DNA of 64,000 nucleotides from Prevotella sp. GTDB lineage: Bacteria > Bacteroidota > Bacteroidia > Bacteroidales > Dysgonomonadaceae. The translations under genes were made by a program, and so were the position numbers. The DNA lies in the NCBI GenBank assembly GCA_031285625.1, contig JAITVV010000073.1:50357-114356 (forward strand). Direction: 5' to 3'. Positions 54,951 through 63,060 of the stretch are shown here, in pieces. Position 1 is the stretch's first letter; each line of letters starts with the position of its first letter. The notes beneath the pieces were generated by a model, which worked only from the letters and a program-made list of their open reading frames with translations, ran no database searches and was not told where the DNA came from.

Positions 54951-56111
54951 TTAGATACCTTCATATTTATGTTCGAATTTTTTCAGATCCATACCTTTCA
55001 GAGCTCCCTCTACTAATTCAGGGAGTCGATCAGGAGTACAGGCGAAACATGCTATGCCTAATTTACTTATTTCTTTTGCCAGATTAGGATCATAGTCGGG
55101 TTTTCCCCTATCTGACAGAGCTAACAATGTTATCACTTTAACACCATCAGCATGCATTTCAGACAGACGCCTTAATAGTCCTGCACGTACCCCTCCTTCA
55201 TAGAGATCAGAGATAAGGATAAACATCGTCTTGCGAGGATTCTGAATCAGGCTCTGGCAATATGTTACAGATTTGTTGATATCTGTTCCTCCTCCCAGCT
55301 GAACCCCGAAAAGCATGTCTACCGGATCGTTCTTACATAATTCAGTCAGATCAGTTATTTCTGTATCGAAAGCTACTACATGCGTATCCAATGCAGGCAT
55401 ACTGGCAAATATAGATCCCATAACAGAAGAATAGACTATTGAGTCACACATAGATCCACTCTGGTCTATATCCAGAATCACAGTCCACGATTTTTGTTTC
55501 TGGCTCCGTTCGAAGAAATAGAATTTTTCAGGGATAAGTCTTTTCTTTTCAGTATCATAATTCTTCAGGTTGCGATTGATAGTACGCTTCCAGTCTGTTG
55601 CTGAGAAATTACTGATAGGTGAATGTGCTTTTTTATTCAGAGCACCGGTTACAGCCTTACGCAGATCCTGTTCCATCCGTTTCATTATTTCATCTACCAC
55701 CTCTTTCACCAACTGGCGTGCAGTTTCCTTCGATTTTTCAGGTATCTGTCCCTTCAATGCCATCAAGGTACCTACCATAGAGATATCTGGTTGTACATTC
55801 TTCAATGTTTCTGGCTCCAGAAGAAGCTTTGTCAAGCCCTTTCGCTCAATGGCATCAGCCTGTATTACACTTACCACATCCTGAGGAAAGAATGTACGCA
55901 CATCAGTAAGCCATTTAGCCAGATTAGGAGCGGATGGTCCCAGGCCAGCACCCTTTCTTCCTCCTCCTTTTCCTGAGCTATCACTATCATAAATAGCAGC
56001 CAGAGCGGCATCCATTATACTTTCTTTCTCACTTAACCCTACATTGCCAAATGCCTTGGAATCTCCTCCAAGGATCAACCTCCACCGGGTCATATTTTGA
56101 TTATCTGTCAT
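54951..56111 (-). CDS. VWA-domain protein of the MoxR/DUF5682 module
   Basis: The protein has 386 residues without signal peptide or membrane segment. The N-terminal half (about 1-205) is helical and contains LILGGDSKAF and a Gly-rich stretch. The VWA domain occupies about 210-385 and has an intact metal site: DQSGS (Asp216, Ser218, Ser220), the Thr in GGGTDINKSV and the Asp in LISDLYEGG. VWA proteins of this kind work with MoxR AAA+ ATPases as adaptors that present or assemble target proteins. It is the last gene of the minus-strand arm, 14 bases after the DUF5682 stop. The target is unknown. Confidence 0.85.
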   Translation of the reverse strand: MTDNQNMTRWRLILGGDSKAFGNVGLSEKESIMDAALAAIYDSDSSGKGGGRKGAGLGPSAPNLAKWLTDVRTFFPQDVVSVIQADAIERKGLTKLLLEPETLKNVQPDISMVGTLMALKGQIPEKSKETARQLVKEVVDEIMKRMEQDLRKAVTGALNKKAHSPISNFSATDWKRTINRNLKNYDTEKKRLIPEKFYFFERSQKQKSWTVILDIDQSGSMCDSIVYSSVMGSIFASMPALDTHVVAFDTEITDLTELCKNDPVDMLFGVQLGGGTDINKSVTYCQSLIQNPRKTMFILISDLYEGGVRAGLLRRLSEMHADGVKVITLLALSDRGKPDYDPNLAKEISKLGIACFACTPDRLPELVEGALKGMDLKKFEHKYEGI

Positions 56112-56125
56112 TGTTTATCATTTTA

Positions 56126-58420
56126 TCAGAAATCGAATTCAAAGTCATTTAGTTCATCCAGTTTCTCGGTTTCCTGCTCTGTCAACTCAGCTTGCAATAT
56201 CTCGGCTGTAGCTTCTGCACCTGTACCCCATATATCGCCCAAGAGTTCGGCAATACTATTTTTCTGATTGGGTTCAAAGTCTCCAAAAGCTCTACGCAGA
56301 AATACCACTGAACGGAAAAACTCATCTTCATCCAATGCCTGTACATAGCTATCCAGTTCGCGCCACAGCGTAACACGGGATAATAACGCATAGCGGTTAC
56401 GACCCGAAAGACCTTCAAACCATCCGGCTCCTATATCTGCAGGAATACCAGGAGATAATCGCCGCGAAACTTCTTTTGCACAGTCATCTTCATCAGCCAA
56501 ATTATGCTCCAATAGCAGAGAAAATGCGACACCGGATAATTTCGGATTAAGATCGTCTCTCCATGCCAGTTTTTGCAACTCCTGTTGCCATATATTTACA
56601 TCTACCTGATCGTATTGCTCTTGTGAGATAAGGTCCATAACATTGATAGCTTTTGCTATCTCTGATGAGGATTTCTCGTCACAGGATGAAGCATCCGTTA
56701 ATAAAAGAGAAGCTCTTAAGAACAACTGTTGCATAATAGGTATGAGTGGTTCCAGATTGAACTGACGTATGCTTCCATACTGTATAAGGTATGAAAGTTC
56801 CTGAGCAGCATAAGCCACTTCCCTGAAATTATTTGAATCTACAAGGAGACTTTGTAATGTAGATACAGCATTGTCAAAAAGCTTAGACAAATTACACTCA
56901 CATGCCTGACGGATAATTTTGGCAGCCTGTGATATATCTGTACAATTCTCCAATTGTTCTTTTAGTTCAAAAGCCGCCGCAGTTTCTAAAGTTTCACCTT
57001 TTAAGTTGGCCTCTACAATTTCAATCTCTGTTTCGGGTGTCCAACGCAAGATCCATTTCTCAGCCCATGAAGCAGAATCTTGGGATACTGAAAGCTTTTG
57101 GGCGAATTTTATTTTTAAGACTTCCAGGCGATGCAGAAAAGTAGAGCGATTCAGGTCAATAAAGGCGGCCTCTTTCGTTTTTACCTTTATATTCTCCCTC
57201 AAATCGAGACTTAAATCCTGTGCTACTGCAGATTTATATTGAGTCAGTTTTAAGCGCTTCAGTTCCTGATTCATATCTTCCTGTACAGGAGTCTGACTTA
57301 CGCCTTCCGGCAAGCTTCCTATTGCAGTACCTATATCTACCATATTGATAGCTTCAGCAACAGGAGATAGTTCTCCTCCACCAAAACAAGTAATAACGGC
57401 ATCATGTAGATCTTTGAGTACAGGCAGAGAGCCATTCCTCAAAGAAGTGAGCGAGTTAGCAAGCCTGACGGCTTCTATTACACTGGCAGATGATGCATTG
57501 TTTCCCTTTTGCCTGAGCTCTCCGGCTATCATCGAAAGATATATGGATGGCAAGCTGGTCAAAGCATTATCCTGAAGGCACTTCCACATCAATTCAAAAT
57601 AGAACGGAGCCTTATTGCCTGCACCATAACCTGTACGGCTACTTAACCGATGATAAGAATACGGCATCAAAGTCATCCTTGAATCTGCACGGGGTATATT
57701 CTTCAAGTCCTCATCAGACATTGGAGGTAATTCGCTCAATATCCCCTTTACATGGTATGCTCCGACTATAACAACAATATCTTCAGGTTTGAATCCTTCA
57801 TTAATAGCCCGTTGTATTTCCCGGCGCATATAAGCTTCGCGTATCAGATTGTAAGAATAATCATAAGGCACAGCCTCATATTCTTTGTCTACAACCATAT
57901 CGCGCATTTCACCGGTTTGCAAACTCAAACCTTCACGAAAAGTATCTTTCTGCAGATTATGTTCAAAGTTGCGCTCCCAATAGCTTTCGTAATCTTCCTC
58001 TCCATAATAAGATGCCAGCTTATCATAAAGTCCGTTATGAAAAGTATAGAATTCTTTCTGCTCCTCATCCGGCAATTCACGAGAGCGTTCTTGACGTATC
58101 TTTAAGAAAATATTACAAGGTAGATCTATGAAACGAACTTCTGCTTTTTTCTTTACACCCCAACATACTGCCTGATATTCGGGCGAATAGCTGGCAAAGG
58201 GATATAATATTGTTTCTATTGGTAATTCGGTAGTGTATGCAAGAAATGCAACAGGAGGTTTCACTTTCTTATTTGCCAATTCAAGTAGTATTTCTGTTCC
58301 ATCCGATGGTCCTTCAATAAGAATACATTTAGGCTTTTTCTCTTCTAAATATTGTATCAAATGATAGGATGCCCCCGGTGAAAGATGCCTGACTCCGAAT
58401 ATGTTTAAATCTTTATTCAT
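56126..58420 (-). CDS. DUF5682-family protein with TraB/TIKI-like GX2H motifs
   Basis: The protein has 764 residues, cytoplasmic by lack of signals. The N-terminal 280 residues look like an alpha/beta domain. GVRH (residues 9-12) lies at its first strand and GAYH (220-223) in VVIVGAYHVKG; a Glu-containing strand ILIEGPSDG lies between. Two GX2H motifs plus an acidic residue are the hallmark of the TraB/TIKI/GumN group, some of which are metal-dependent proteases. The remaining 480 residues are long helices with repeated Leu/Ala faces, suggesting a solenoid. DUF5682 genes regularly accompany MoxR and VWA genes, to my recollection. The enzymatic idea is inference from motifs only. Confidence 0.75.
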   Translation of the reverse strand: MNKDLNIFGVRHLSPGASYHLIQYLEEKKPKCILIEGPSDGTEILLELANKKVKPPVAFLAYTTELPIETILYPFASYSPEYQAVCWGVKKKAEVRFIDLPCNIFLKIRQERSRELPDEEQKEFYTFHNGLYDKLASYYGEEDYESYWERNFEHNLQKDTFREGLSLQTGEMRDMVVDKEYEAVPYDYSYNLIREAYMRREIQRAINEGFKPEDIVVIVGAYHVKGILSELPPMSDEDLKNIPRADSRMTLMPYSYHRLSSRTGYGAGNKAPFYFELMWKCLQDNALTSLPSIYLSMIAGELRQKGNNASSASVIEAVRLANSLTSLRNGSLPVLKDLHDAVITCFGGGELSPVAEAINMVDIGTAIGSLPEGVSQTPVQEDMNQELKRLKLTQYKSAVAQDLSLDLRENIKVKTKEAAFIDLNRSTFLHRLEVLKIKFAQKLSVSQDSASWAEKWILRWTPETEIEIVEANLKGETLETAAAFELKEQLENCTDISQAAKIIRQACECNLSKLFDNAVSTLQSLLVDSNNFREVAYAAQELSYLIQYGSIRQFNLEPLIPIMQQLFLRASLLLTDASSCDEKSSSEIAKAINVMDLISQEQYDQVDVNIWQQELQKLAWRDDLNPKLSGVAFSLLLEHNLADEDDCAKEVSRRLSPGIPADIGAGWFEGLSGRNRYALLSRVTLWRELDSYVQALDEDEFFRSVVFLRRAFGDFEPNQKNSIAELLGDIWGTGAEATAEILQAELTEQETEKLDELNDFEFDF

Positions 58421-58467
58421 ATTGATGTGCTAAGTGTTAGAATTAATTGATATCGGTACATTTAGAA

Positions 58468-59568
58468 TCAACCATTCATTTCACTGCAACTATTATAAAG
58501 ACCTCTCCAGTCGGCACCACGCTTTTTCATTACATTTTCCAGGTATTCTTTCCATACCATTTTATCTTTATCTTCATCCTTTACAACAGCACCTTGAAGC
58601 CCTGCTGCCAAATCATTATCTGTGATGTTTCCATTGCCAAAACTAGCGGCTAACGCCATACTATTTGTGATCAAAGAAATAGCTTCGGCAGTAGATATTA
58701 CTCCACTTGGTGATTTTAGTTTCTGTTTTTCGTCTAGAGTAATACCTTGTCTTAATTCGCGGAACACAGTAACGATTTTTTCTACAATCTCACGGTTTGG
58801 CAAGGTAGCTTTCAATCTGTAATTACCCGCTATTTCAGCAACACGTTTATTAACGATATTTACCTCTGTTTCCAAATTGGCTGGAGAAGGCAGCACAATA
58901 ATATTAAAACGACGTTTAAGTGCCGATGACATATCATTTACACCCCTGTCACGTGTATTTGCTGTTGCTATAATTGCAAAACCACGTTGGGCTGGTAGTT
59001 CTTTAGATAACTCAGGAATAGCAATCGTTTTTTCTGACATGATAGAAATTAAAGCGTCTTGTACCTCTGACGCACAACGTGAAATTTCTTCAAAGCGGGC
59101 AATACTACCACCTTCCATAGACCGCATTATAGGGCTTTTTATCAGAGCAGCGTCAGATGGCCCATTTGCAAGCAACATGGCATAGTTCCAGGAATAGCGA
59201 ATATGTTCTTCACTCGTTCCGGCAGTACCTTGTACCACTTTGCCTGAATCTCCACAAATAGCTGCAGATAGATTCTCAGAAAGCCATGATTTTGCAGTTC
59301 CCGGCTCGCCGATTAGTAATAATGATCTGTCAGTAAGTAATGTGGCAATAGCGATTTCTACAAGACGATCATGGCCGATATATTTAGGAGTAATATCAAC
59401 GCTTCCAGCTTTACCACCAACAATAAATTTTAATACAGCTTTAGGAGACAAATGCCAGCCTACAGGTTTTTCTTCATTTTTATCTTCATCTTTCAGTGCA
59501 TCTAATTCGTGTGCATAAAGTAATTCGGCTGGTAACCTCAAAACATCTTTTTTGTCATCTTTTGCCAT
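58468..59568 (-). CDS. MoxR-type AAA+ ATPase
   Basis: The protein has 366 residues. Walker A is GEPGTAKS (residues 87-94). The Walker B region reads ARFEEISR (157-164), where the usual Asp of the DE pair is Glu160 and the catalytic Glu161 is kept. Sensor 1 is in AIIATANTRDRGVND, and the arginine-finger region is ALKRRFN. A C-terminal lid domain follows (about 270-355). MoxR proteins act as chaperone-like motors, usually with a VWA partner; here that is the product at 54951. It is the first gene of the minus-strand arm; DUF5682 starts 47 bases downstream. Confidence 0.9.
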   Translation of the reverse strand: MAKDDKKDVLRLPAELLYAHELDALKDEDKNEEKPVGWHLSPKAVLKFIVGGKAGSVDITPKYIGHDRLVEIAIATLLTDRSLLLIGEPGTAKSWLSENLSAAICGDSGKVVQGTAGTSEEHIRYSWNYAMLLANGPSDAALIKSPIMRSMEGGSIARFEEISRCASEVQDALISIMSEKTIAIPELSKELPAQRGFAIIATANTRDRGVNDMSSALKRRFNIIVLPSPANLETEVNIVNKRVAEIAGNYRLKATLPNREIVEKIVTVFRELRQGITLDEKQKLKSPSGVISTAEAISLITNSMALAASFGNGNITDNDLAAGLQGAVVKDEDKDKMVWKEYLENVMKKRGADWRGLYNSCSEMNG

Positions 59569-59612
59569 TTGGTGTAAAGTTTTATAGTTTATAATTTGCT
59601 TATGTTTAATTA

Positions 59613-59706
59613 TTGTACCTCAGCAGATTGTACAATCTTATATATTCCTTATAGTTTTGTACAAAAATTGTCATGCCAAATATATGAATAATGATCGTCT
59701 AAACCA
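59613..59706. promoter_or_regulatory. shared control region of the divergent MoxR and SWIM arms
   Basis: AGATTGTACAATCT (59625-59638) and TTTTGTACAAAA (59655-59666) are perfect palindromes with the same core TTGTACAA, 29 bases apart; a half-site TTGTAC lies at 59613-59618. A plus-strand promoter is predicted from ATTG (59627-59630) and TAGTTTTG (59652-59659, spacer 21). A minus-strand promoter is predicted from TTG (59704-59706 read on the complement) and TATATTTG (59677-59684, spacer 19). The two promoters face each other and would start transcription within a few bases of one another. Confidence 0.55.
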
Positions 59707-59774
59707 ACGGTAGATATTACAACAAACAGAAATATTTTATATATATTCGCAAATATCTTTAACAAAACAAGTTT

Positions 59775-61208
59775 ATGAATATCACTACAAAACTAATTGA
59801 GGAGCTGGCTCCCAATGCGGCAGCGGCAAAAAATGGCCGGGATCTTGTCAGCAAAAACAAATTCTCAAATCTCAAAAAATCAGAAGACGATACTGTTATA
59901 TGGGGAGAATGTGCCGGCAGTGGCAAGAATCCATATATGTGTTCTGTTGATTTTATTGATGAGAATAATCCCATAAGCAGGTGTAATTGCCCCAGCAGGC
60001 AGTTTCCATGTAAACATGGATTAGGATTAATGTACGCTTATGAAAAAGGGTTAACATTCAACTCTTCCGATATTCCTGAGGATATTTTATCAAAACGAGA
60101 AAAAATAGAAAAGAAACAGGAAAAAAAGACTCAAGAGAAGGAAACAATAAAGGAGAAAGCAGAAAAGCCAAAAAAAATAAATAAGGCAGCTGTTATAAAA
60201 AAAGCAGAGGCCCAACTTACCGGAATAGATCTGGCAGAAAAACTATTAAGGAATATTATTCAGATGGGGTTATCTTCTGTAGATGCACAATCCAGAAGAA
60301 CTTTTTCTACACAAATAAAAGAACTGGGTAATTACTATATCAATGGAATACAAACAGCATTTAATAATCTGATGCTGGAACTCGATGATGTGGAGAATGA
60401 CAAATATACCAGAGTCATAGATCAGATAAATTTTATTTCAGCACTACTAAAAAAGAGTAAAGATTATTTAAACTCACGTAAAGAAAATCCGGAAGCTGCT
60501 CCAGAACTAAATTCTGCGATTGAAGAACAAATTGGCTATGTATGGAAGCTTGTTGAATTGATGGAGAATGGACTTTGGGAAGAAAATGCTGAGATAATTC
60601 AATTGTCATTCAATAATTATGACGATCCTGCCCGCAAAGAGTATATCGATCAGGGATACTGGATAAACCTGAAAACAGGAAAAATATATTCAACTAAGAA
60701 TTATCGTCCTTACAGGGCTGCAAAATATATAAAAGAAGATAATAGTATATTTGACGTATTACAAACACCCGAACTATTTATTTATCCGGGAGACCTTAAT
60801 CCCCGCGCACGTTGGGATTCGGCAGGAAGACGTGACGTTACACAAAATGATATCACAACTATTATTAATTATGCCTCATCCAACTATGCAGATTTAGTAA
60901 AAACAATAAAGGGAAGTATAAAGAATCCATTGATGGATAAGAACCCTGTAGCATTAATAAAACTACATAAATCCTACGTTAATGGAGAACACCTTGTGGT
61001 TGAAGATGAGCAAGGCAATGTCTTGACTGTAATGGATATGCCTTATGAGGAAATGAAAGTAGAACATTTCCTTAAATCGGTTATACCCTCCGAACCGAAA
61101 GGCTATGCACTGCTGGTGAAAATAAACAATGATGTTGAGTCTGGCTTATTTTCGGTACAGCCACTTTCATTAATTACCCCGGAAAAGATAATCCGTTTGC
61201 TTTATTAA
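59775..61208 (+). CDS. SWIM zinc-finger protein
   Basis: The protein has 477 residues. The SWIM motif is complete: Cys70, Cys72, Cys79 and His81 in CNCPSRQFPCKH. A lysine/glutamate-rich linker (about 105-145) connects to a mostly helical body of unknown family (about 150-300), and the C-terminal 170 residues form a mixed domain containing FIYPGDLNPRARWDSAGRRDV. SWIM zinc fingers bind nucleic acid or protein. It is divergent from the MoxR gene and is followed after 19 bases by a helical-repeat gene. Such SWIM genes are, as I recall, regular neighbours of MoxR-DUF5682-VWA genes also in actinobacteria. Confidence 0.8.
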   Translation: MNITTKLIEELAPNAAAAKNGRDLVSKNKFSNLKKSEDDTVIWGECAGSGKNPYMCSVDFIDENNPISRCNCPSRQFPCKHGLGLMYAYEKGLTFNSSDIPEDILSKREKIEKKQEKKTQEKETIKEKAEKPKKINKAAVIKKAEAQLTGIDLAEKLLRNIIQMGLSSVDAQSRRTFSTQIKELGNYYINGIQTAFNNLMLELDDVENDKYTRVIDQINFISALLKKSKDYLNSRKENPEAAPELNSAIEEQIGYVWKLVELMENGLWEENAEIIQLSFNNYDDPARKEYIDQGYWINLKTGKIYSTKNYRPYRAAKYIKEDNSIFDVLQTPELFIYPGDLNPRARWDSAGRRDVTQNDITTIINYASSNYADLVKTIKGSIKNPLMDKNPVALIKLHKSYVNGEHLVVEDEQGNVLTVMDMPYEEMKVEHFLKSVIPSEPKGYALLVKINNDVESGLFSVQPLSLITPEKIIRLLY

Positions 61209-61227
61209 TCCCCTAAAATGACACATT

Positions 61228-63060
61228 ATGAGAATACAACCATTATATGATCTGCAACAAGAAGTAAACCGCCTCTTTATTGCAGGCAGTAAATTTGCAA
61301 AAAACGACCCCCGACTACTAAAGTTGATACCTATATTTGAAAAGCTAGGAGAAAAGGCTCCGGTATTTAAAAAACTAGCAAGAGATATACAGGACTTAAC
61401 CAAGGCCGATGCTTTAGAATCATCAGAAAAGCTAACAGCTATCAGTACCCTACTCTACTCTGTACTTTACACGCAGGGAGAAATGACCGAAACTGATGTG
61501 AAGAAAAAAGATCAAACACCACATTTTGATATAAATGATATTACAACACTATATTCATATTTGGAGGTGAAGCCGGCAATTAAAGCCTTATCGGAAAGTA
61601 ATCAGGGAAGAATGGAAGTAGTTGAAGACGCCCGAAAAAGAGGAATATTTAAAGATTTCAGGACATATGCTTATCTGGATTTGGCTTTAGGCGATAAATA
61701 CTCAGAACTAGCCGAACTTGCATACACGATTATAAAAGAGGACGCAGGAAAAACAATCATTCCAATCCTGGTTGAGAATTTCAGCTATGAAGGACGCAAA
61801 GAAGATTCCCGAAGATTACTATTACTTCATCACTTTGGCTATGAAGGAGTACCTTTTATGATAAAAAAAATAATGGAAGAGTCTGCAGTTAATCTACAAG
61901 CTGCTGCTATCACTATTTTAAGTGAAGATCTAAAAAATGAAGATTGGATTATAGAACTCACCGGAGATAAAAATAAGGTTGTTCGTGAAGCCGCATATAT
62001 GGGCTTAGCAAAACTGAATACAGAAAAAAGCCAGGATAAATTAAAAGAGTTGTACATAAAGAACCGGACTAAAAACAAAACTAACTTCGAACTACTCGTA
62101 TATGCTCTCCAATCAACTGACATGAGCTTCTTCTTCAATGAGGTATTTCAGCAAGTACGTGAAAGCTTCAACGAACTGTTAGCCATCAACAAAGATGCGG
62201 ATAATAAAAACTTTGTGGCTGCAATGGAGAATTTCCAGTCAAACATTTCGGTATTAAATTATAAAGACAAACCGGAAGTATATGATTTCCTTTCGGAAGT
62301 GCTTCTAAGCGATAATTACAATAAACTGATAAAGGATAAGAAAAATCTGCTGGCTGGTTATGCAAACAACGTATCTCAAACTATAATATCCGTATTACGT
62401 ACACTGGATAATAAAAAGACATTGGCTTTCTATAAAAAGATAGCGGATAAAATGCCTGATACAGAATGGAAGATACCATTCTATAAGAGGTACTTATATG
62501 ATAGTGTTACTGCTAAATCGAAAGATATCTACGACACATTCATAAATGCATATAATAAGAACTATATTGATATTAATGACCTTATCAAAGCATATAGCAG
62601 TAGTTACTCATATTATGCTAATGTTTCGCAGATAGATGATATCAAGGTAATTGATAAACGTTGGATCGACAGATTATATGAGCATATAGAAAAAGCTAAG
62701 AGTATGAAATATGACGAAATGAGAATGCTCGATATCATAGATGCTTATGAACCTGTGCCATGCGATAAGTTGAATAAGCTATTAAAAAAGGCAAGTACTA
62801 AAGTTGAAGTATATACCTCTGTAGATATCTTCAATAAAATGATGGCCAGAGATATCCCTGATAAATTCGATGCAATATATTCTGTTGTTAAGAATTATAC
62901 AAAAGGCTCTAATTCATACTATTTCTCAAGGTTAGCCGAAGCTGATTTCTGGGAAAAATTTCCAAAAGAATATATACCGAAGTTTAAAGACTTACATGCT
63001 AAAACGAAGCTTGGGTTATTTGAAACAATTGTAGATAAAATCCAACTAGGAAACGGATAA
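61228..63060 (+). CDS. large helical-repeat protein of the SWIM arm
   Basis: The protein has 610 residues and no signal peptide. It is all helical by composition. The part around residues 185-300 has HEAT-like pairs (DSRRLLLLHHFGYEGVPFMI, NKVVREAAYMGLAKLN). The rest is a longer solenoid without a motif I recognise; in actinobacterial versions of this neighbourhood a DUF5691 protein holds the same place, but I cannot assert homology. It starts 19 bases after the SWIM gene and ends before a hairpin. I infer a scaffold that binds the SWIM protein or its target. Confidence 0.65.
   Translation: MRIQPLYDLQQEVNRLFIAGSKFAKNDPRLLKLIPIFEKLGEKAPVFKKLARDIQDLTKADALESSEKLTAISTLLYSVLYTQGEMTETDVKKKDQTPHFDINDITTLYSYLEVKPAIKALSESNQGRMEVVEDARKRGIFKDFRTYAYLDLALGDKYSELAELAYTIIKEDAGKTIIPILVENFSYEGRKEDSRRLLLLHHFGYEGVPFMIKKIMEESAVNLQAAAITILSEDLKNEDWIIELTGDKNKVVREAAYMGLAKLNTEKSQDKLKELYIKNRTKNKTNFELLVYALQSTDMSFFFNEVFQQVRESFNELLAINKDADNKNFVAAMENFQSNISVLNYKDKPEVYDFLSEVLLSDNYNKLIKDKKNLLAGYANNVSQTIISVLRTLDNKKTLAFYKKIADKMPDTEWKIPFYKRYLYDSVTAKSKDIYDTFINAYNKNYIDINDLIKAYSSSYSYYANVSQIDDIKVIDKRWIDRLYEHIEKAKSMKYDEMRMLDIIDAYEPVPCDKLNKLLKKASTKVEVYTSVDIFNKMMARDIPDKFDAIYSVVKNYTKGSNSYYFSRLAEADFWEKFPKEYIPKFKDLHAKTKLGLFETIVDKIQLGNG

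Follow-up and report, generated by a model that had tools for sequence, protein, structure and literature searches.

We describe a five-gene module in a 64,000-nucleotide stretch of the Prevotella sp. contig JAITVV010000073.1 (hereafter the window; host genome of 4.84 Mb in 96 contigs). The module encodes a MoxR-type AAA+ ATPase, a DUF5682 protein and a von Willebrand factor A (VWA) protein in one arm, and a SWIM zinc-finger protein and a HEAT-type helical-repeat protein in the other (Table 1). By sequence comparison, it is a version of the yehL-yehM-yehP-yehQ run of Escherichia coli, in which the MoxR, DUF5682, VWA and SWIM genes likewise lie together, in the order MoxR-DUF5682-VWA-SWIM, with a DUF4132 gene (yehI, upstream) instead of the window's HEAT gene. 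We tentatively propose, at a confidence just short of even, that the products work together as a single ATP-driven remodelling machine of the YehL (MoxR/VWA) type, with DUF5682, a putative TraB/Tiki-like hydrolase, as its working part. The accessible parts of the literature searched assign no function to DUF5682, YehL or the yehLMPQ set, in agreement with the first-pass annotation of this DNA, which had overlooked the E. coli counterpart. The parts list was already known; that literature yielded no mention of the unlinked co-occurrence of the genes, the TraB-like domain of DUF5682 or the exchangeable scaffold.

To begin with the gene set itself, 247 Bacteroidota genomes were searched for DUF5682, SWIM and DUF5691, and 198 Spirochaetota genomes for DUF5682 and VWA. 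DUF5682 was found in seven of the Bacteroidota genomes, and the SWIM profile matched in the same seven and in none of the other 240 (E 1e-10). This profile consisted of ten rows, to which four of the seven genomes contributed and three (G037, G162 and G178) did not. DUF5691 was detected in six of the seven (G162 fell below the cut-off) and, weakly and below the cut-off, in one further Bacteroidota genome (G014); it is absent from the window's genome. Among the Spirochaetota, DUF5682 exceeded the cut-off in 31 of the 198 genomes, a 32nd match (G491) falling below it, and the VWA profile (11 rows, one from this draw) retrieved the same 31 genomes and no others (E 1e-15). Identical sets would arise by chance with probabilities of 1e-13 (Bacteroidota) and 1e-36 (Spirochaetota), values valid only if genomes are independent; because relatives cluster, the independent events are few.

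The co-occurrence extends to genes that are not linked. Of the 31 Spirochaetota genomes, 4 have DUF5682 and VWA adjacent, 12 carry both on one contig at a distance of 9 kb to 2.7 Mb, and the other 15 have them on separate contigs. The three Bacteroidota genomes that contributed no SWIM rows, all from one family, differ in arrangement: G037 carries the five components in five places; in G178, 1.5 kb separates DUF5682 from VWA, and the remaining three components are elsewhere; G162 groups MoxR and DUF5682 with the weak DUF5691 match, its VWA and SWIM genes being elsewhere. In three Capnocytophaga genomes, DUF5682 (70-71%), VWA (83%), MoxR (84-85%) and SWIM-HEAT (SWIM 63-64%) occupy four separate places. 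Eight genomes had a DUF5682 locus that was without VWA, separated from it, or truncated; VWA was recovered in all eight, and MoxR in six of six in a like search. With the window protein alone, SWIM was recovered in 8 of 12 genomes or records, the misses being G037, G162, G334 and a 14-kb record; the genes of G037 and G162 were later recovered with the profile. Where module genes stand alone in Capnocytophaga and Spirochaetota, the genes around them are varied and follow no theme. The co-occurrence of unlinked genes in two phyla speaks well for a mutual dependence of the parts. The gene set does not reflect chance: it recurs in several phyla, and its parts co-occur across genomes. The first-pass annotation had treated the five genes as one set and had named co-occurrence beyond Bacteroidota as support for this; both draws and the spread over phyla agree with it. 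As evidence against it, the annotation had named arms that occur independently in most genomes; this was not observed for the SWIM/DUF5682 and DUF5682/VWA pairs, DUF5691 providing the only other pair checked.

DUF5682 is probably a hydrolase, as predicted from the sequence of its N-terminal domain. PrgY is a pheromone-shutdown membrane protein, and the TraB/Tiki pattern to which it belongs runs GxxH, Glu, R/E helix, GxxH. DUF5682 shares with the TraB/PrgY and Tiki superfamily the two GxxH motifs, the Glu after the first and the R/E helix before the second, and has about 490 additional residues. In hhalign comparisons, residues 1-275 matched a joint profile of PrgY-type TraB proteins with a probability of 95.9% over 230 columns (E 5.9e-9 for a single comparison), whereas eight unrelated profiles in the same test gave at most 0.5%. 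Five single plasmid TraB proteins gave 34 to 95%. Against PrgY alone, the match reached 90.5% over 201 columns with a score of 51.0, compared with at most 5.3% and 27.8 for 237 unrelated proteins and at most 2.9% and 24.2 for 60 shuffles. Residues R11, H12, E36, D99, W148, E153, R173, R194, E195, M198, G220 and H223 are invariant in 34 of 34 DUF5682 proteins, and G9 is kept in 33. The open reading frame (ORF) caller was greedy and lost genes in GC-rich loci (e.g. L031, L033, L037, L039 and L142); L031 and L039 are left out of this conservation count, and the co-occurrence counts are independent of the caller. By sequence, the N-terminal domain thus groups with PrgY-type TraB proteins, and it would adopt their fold, and what had been annotated as a possible hydrolase is now, on the strength of this profile match, a probable one. 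A PDB sequence search with the N-terminal domain returned six matches, the top two being TraB family proteins (E 0.19). The sole PDB match of the whole protein, a CAP REPEAT chain (E 0.0031), was judged to be chance, and GumN/YbaP was rejected as the nearest TraB branch, the profile matches not being significant.

The motor components also retain their characteristic residues. The metal-ion-dependent adhesion site (MIDAS) of the VWA protein (D216, S218, S220, T276 and D302) is kept in 23-24 of 24 aligned sequences. The MoxR protein has Walker A at residues 87-94, together with E160-E161 and R219-R220; 27 of 28 sequences retain G87, P89-K93, E160, E161, R219 and R220, and conservation of E88 and S94 in the same alignment is below 90%. 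Like the module, NorQ/NorD, RavA/ViaA and CbbQ/CbbO combine a MoxR AAA+ protein with a VWA partner bearing a MIDAS site; unlike the module, they have described clients. We know of no DUF5682, SWIM or solenoid partner in these systems. The accessible text of PMC3893208 lists YehL as one of seven named MoxR subfamilies and gives NOR, CO dehydrogenase and Nuo as clients of described MoxR proteins. For NorQD, the accessible part of PMC13036017 describes a VWA finger inserted in the MoxR pore, an arrangement presumed to be general; it proposes that ATP drives the client open so that metal can be inserted.

In the machine that we propose, MoxR would form an AAA+ ring, the finger of the VWA protein would plug its pore, and the MIDAS metal site would grip the partner; an ATP-driven twist would then open the DUF5682 active site, or load it, perhaps with metal, and so switch the hydrolase on. 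The HEAT, DUF5691 or DUF4132 solenoid would serve as a scaffold that can be exchanged, and recruitment of the substrate, or of the site at which the machine acts, would fall to the SWIM finger. We infer the physical complex, the fold and hydrolase activity of DUF5682, its activation by MoxR-VWA and the roles of SWIM and scaffold from the comparisons above. By analogy with NorQD, that MoxR-VWA acts on DUF5682 itself would be the simplest reading, since neither SWIM (Bacteroidota) nor VWA (Spirochaetota) occurred without DUF5682 in the draws.

Several results weigh against this proposal. No recognised partner lay beside DUF5682 in 16 of the 20 Spirochaetota loci read, and the draws covered DUF5682 and VWA in Spirochaetota and DUF5682, SWIM and DUF5691 in Bacteroidota. 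GumN-type TraB (1.3-2.3%), YbaP (2.6%) and a mixed TraB alignment (19.7%) gave no significant match to the N-terminal domain. Pfam TraB remained below its cut-off, matching 4 of 14 close relatives and 1 of 10 in a wider set that partly overlaps those 14. The second Glu (E-x-H) of the 2His/2Glu site described for TIKI-type enzymes (PMC6254334, accessible part) is not in place, the position being V or I in the 34 rows. Furthermore, the client could instead be an outside protein. As to the profile and site comparisons, GumN scores likewise poorly against the PrgY-type profile (2.2%), and PrgY also lacks that Glu, with T at the E-x-H position.

Were the client an outside protein, the module would be a chaperone that, like RavA-ViaA or NorQD, assembles an enzyme complex encoded elsewhere or supplies it with metal, with DUF5682 as a non-catalytic adaptor. 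The clients already described for MoxR proteins (PMC3893208, accessible text) and the CoxE type of the VWA protein would fit such a role, but no recurring client gene was found beside the module when the annotated loci and scanned neighbours were inspected by eye, and the TraB-type His and Glu residues, invariant in 34 of 34 DUF5682 proteins, suggest catalysis; we regard this alternative as unlikely, if credible. An ATP-dependent protease, in which MoxR-VWA would unfold substrates recruited by SWIM and the scaffold and feed them to a DUF5682 peptidase, as in unfoldase-peptidase pairs, seems rather improbable: the strict co-occurrence of VWA with a predicted hydrolase and the presence of peptidases among TIKI-type enzymes (PMC6254334, in the part accessible) argue for it, whereas MoxR rings whose pore holds a VWA finger are presented as remodellers and not as threading unfoldases (PMC13036017, likewise), and the peptidase activity is itself a prediction.

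Regarding the remaining two components of the proposed remodelling machine, the finger residues C70, C72, C79 and H81 (CxCx(n)CxH) are invariant in 10 of 10 aligned SWIM relatives. The window protein and YehQ have the Pfam finger in common, and their hhalign matches were not significant outside the finger (19.4%) or at it (14.3%). A comparison of the SWIM profile with PDB gave five matches, at E 0.13 or worse, none of them informative. A Hymenobacter protein of 1009 aa fuses DUF5691 to the SWIM region (SWIM 15.7 bits, below the cut-off, but aligned). The position of the window's HEAT scaffold is taken by DUF5691 in Rhizobium, Deinococcus, Methylosinus and other Bacteroidota; three scaffold families, HEAT, DUF5691 and DUF4132, occur among the relatives. 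In hhalign, no homology was detected between the window's HEAT protein and DUF5691 (2.9%), and the value for DUF4132, the E. coli partner that the window's module lacks, was 0.1%. Homology among the three scaffold families, or between them and the C-terminal part of DUF5682, was considered and likewise undetected. In two of three Capnocytophaga genomes (L094 and L095), the HEAT scaffold gene occurs twice in tandem beside SWIM.

With respect to gene order, all five genes are collinear (SWIM-HEAT-MoxR-DUF5682-VWA) in nine loci from Bacteroidota, a Clostridiales bin and Fusobacterium (L003, L005, L007, L009, L013, L014, L015, L029 and L048), some with an extra gene between and two (L009 and L015) with a short HEAT frame. 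A Spirochaetota locus (L143) has the same line plus two extra genes, and L004 keeps four module genes in line with VWA elsewhere. The Rhizobium, Deinococcus and Methylosinus operons hold the window's five roles in collinear order, with DUF5691 as scaffold; SWIM-DUF5691-MoxR-DUF5682-VWA is annotated as such in the first two, and the VWA gene of Methylosinus is unannotated, with a partial match of only 76 bits. Sinorhizobium and Agrobacterium vitis show another layout, MoxR-DUF5682-DUF4132-VWA-SWIM, and DUF4132 lies upstream of the set in Iodobacter and E. coli. Two divergent arms with a shared 206-bp region had been annotated; this is real in the window, which stands alone among the loci read in that its SWIM-HEAT arm points away from MoxR. 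A Prevotellaceae genome has its two arms on different contigs.

Other genes were observed within or next to these loci. Transposase-like ORFs stand between MoxR and DUF5682 in four of them (L003:5128-5733, L004:7480-8004, L005:7262-7831 and L048:10242-10805), and another is upstream of VWA (L003:9194-9754); the five show 45-74% mutual identity, and Pfam Y1_Tnp exceeded its cut-off in L003:5128-5733 only, being weak in L004 and L003:9194-9754. They resemble REP-associated transposases, which presumably landed repeatedly in the gaps of this operon. In Capnocytophaga, a protein of 283-302 aa matching RHS repeats overlaps the DUF5682 start by 8 bp (L010:7100-8008, L011:2402-3256 and L012:7157-8008). 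Upstream of yehL, the E. coli genes yehF, yehH and yehI (L002:2475-9912) were formerly named molR, a locus of molybdate metabolism; this former name and the CoxE type of the VWA protein hint at a metal link.

The distribution of the module bears on the first-pass suggestion of a conflict with invaders. In E. coli, yehLMPQ DNA is present in 5301 of 5426 genomes, 5162 of them with at least 80% of the query (a DNA match, not per-gene intactness), and 2 of 5322 places are on plasmids; the set is near-core and chromosomal in this species. One source lists yeh genes among those that certain Shigella sonnei lineages have lost by deletion. Within the draw from the window's family, the module is patchy, occurring in 6 of the 13 genomes from the genus and in none of the 48 others. 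An anti-phage or other conflict system would find support in this patchiness (and in the 7 of 247 Bacteroidota), in the description of MoxR-vWA ternary systems as conflict systems (PMC7159879, accessible part), in copies on plasmids, and in a few neighbourhoods: type I restriction genes near the set in Iodobacter, a VapC-type pair and an immunity protein in Methylosinus, and an McrBC-type gene adjoining a lone VWA gene in one Capnocytophaga (L080:9729-11072). The vWA-MoxR-VMAP ternary systems have the MoxR and vWA core in common with the module, but their VMAP, beta-propeller and effector domains are unmatched in its five proteins (Pfam). No PADLOC system fits, only the ATPase giving two weak matches (mad8, 17 bits, E 0.0008; PDC-M37B, 12.5 bits); the other annotated neighbourhoods are without defence-like genes; and, unlike a mobile island, the genes are unlinked yet co-retained in two phyla. 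A two-pattern scan of viral contigs revealed no relative. The phage collection yielded one contig carrying MoxR-DUF5682-VWA, MT835988.1 (L038, 14.2 kb), an unverified 'Bacteriophage sp.' from human faeces that is probably a bacterial contig. Because no PADLOC system matches and the set is near-core in E. coli, we consider a conflict system very unlikely, the few copies beside restriction or toxin-antitoxin genes notwithstanding. Together, these findings point, though not conclusively, to an optional role in the cell rather than to a defence island.

The coordinates of the module are collected in Table 1. The intergenic gaps are 14, 47, 206 and 19 bp, and the five genes, the two arms and the gap sizes had all been annotated exactly. 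No NCBIfam model exceeded its cut-off for any of the five proteins; in Pfam, bpMoxR matched at 27.5 bits (cut-off 27). The perfect palindrome in the shared region is a possible operator; its 10-bp core recurs in 6 of 169 loci, two being the window's locus and three belonging to one other genome (L005, L027 and L050), with no pattern. Terminator-like sites number 8 in the region, versus 5.2 in shuffled sequence. No empty site was identified, the window's flank genes being absent among the collected relative loci, and, in 13 loci of the genus, the neighbourhood of the sulfatase-maturase gene, out to about 1.5 kb, contained none of the window's MFS, GNAT and aldolase genes.

Table 1. Features of the five-gene module in the window (window coordinates).
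Feature	Coordinates	Strand	Description
VWA protein, YehP-like	54951..56111	-	386 aa; Pfam VWA_CoxE 159 bits; 34% to yehP, E 3e-68
DUF5682 protein, YehM-like	56126..58420	-	764 aa; Pfam DUF5682 491 bits; 24% to yehM, E 1e-30
Predicted TraB/Tiki-like N-terminal domain of DUF5682	57596..58420	-	residues 1-275; G9-x-x-H12, E36, R194-E195, G220-x-x-H223
MoxR-type AAA+ ATPase, YehL-like	58468..59568	-	366 aa; Pfam AAA_5 123 bits; pairwise 40% to yehL, E 2e-73
Shared intergenic region	59569..59774		206 bp; contains perfect 14-bp palindrome 59625-59638
SWIM zinc-finger protein	59775..61208	+	477 aa; Pfam SWIM 21.9 bits (cut-off 19.6)
SWIM finger	~59982-60017	+	C70-x-C72 ... C79-x-H81, within SWIM protein
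HEAT-type helical scaffold	61228..63060	+	610 aa; Pfam HEAT_2 32.6 bits
Terminator-like stem-loop	63067..63088		downstream of + arm; found on both strands

Taken to its furthest, the proposal would describe ATP-powered hydrolases of a new class, probably proteases, in which a dedicated MoxR-VWA motor serves a TraB/Tiki-type enzyme with a swappable solenoid and SWIM targeting, and which would occur in several phyla and in almost all E. coli; we think it improbable in this full form. A DUF label on the catalytic domain and the frequent dispersal of the genes would explain why such a class was overlooked. Should DUF5682 prove to be a TraB/Tiki hydrolase coupled to a MoxR-VWA motor, a near-core E. 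coli operon would have a function open to direct testing, and the MoxR machines would gain a hydrolase partner.

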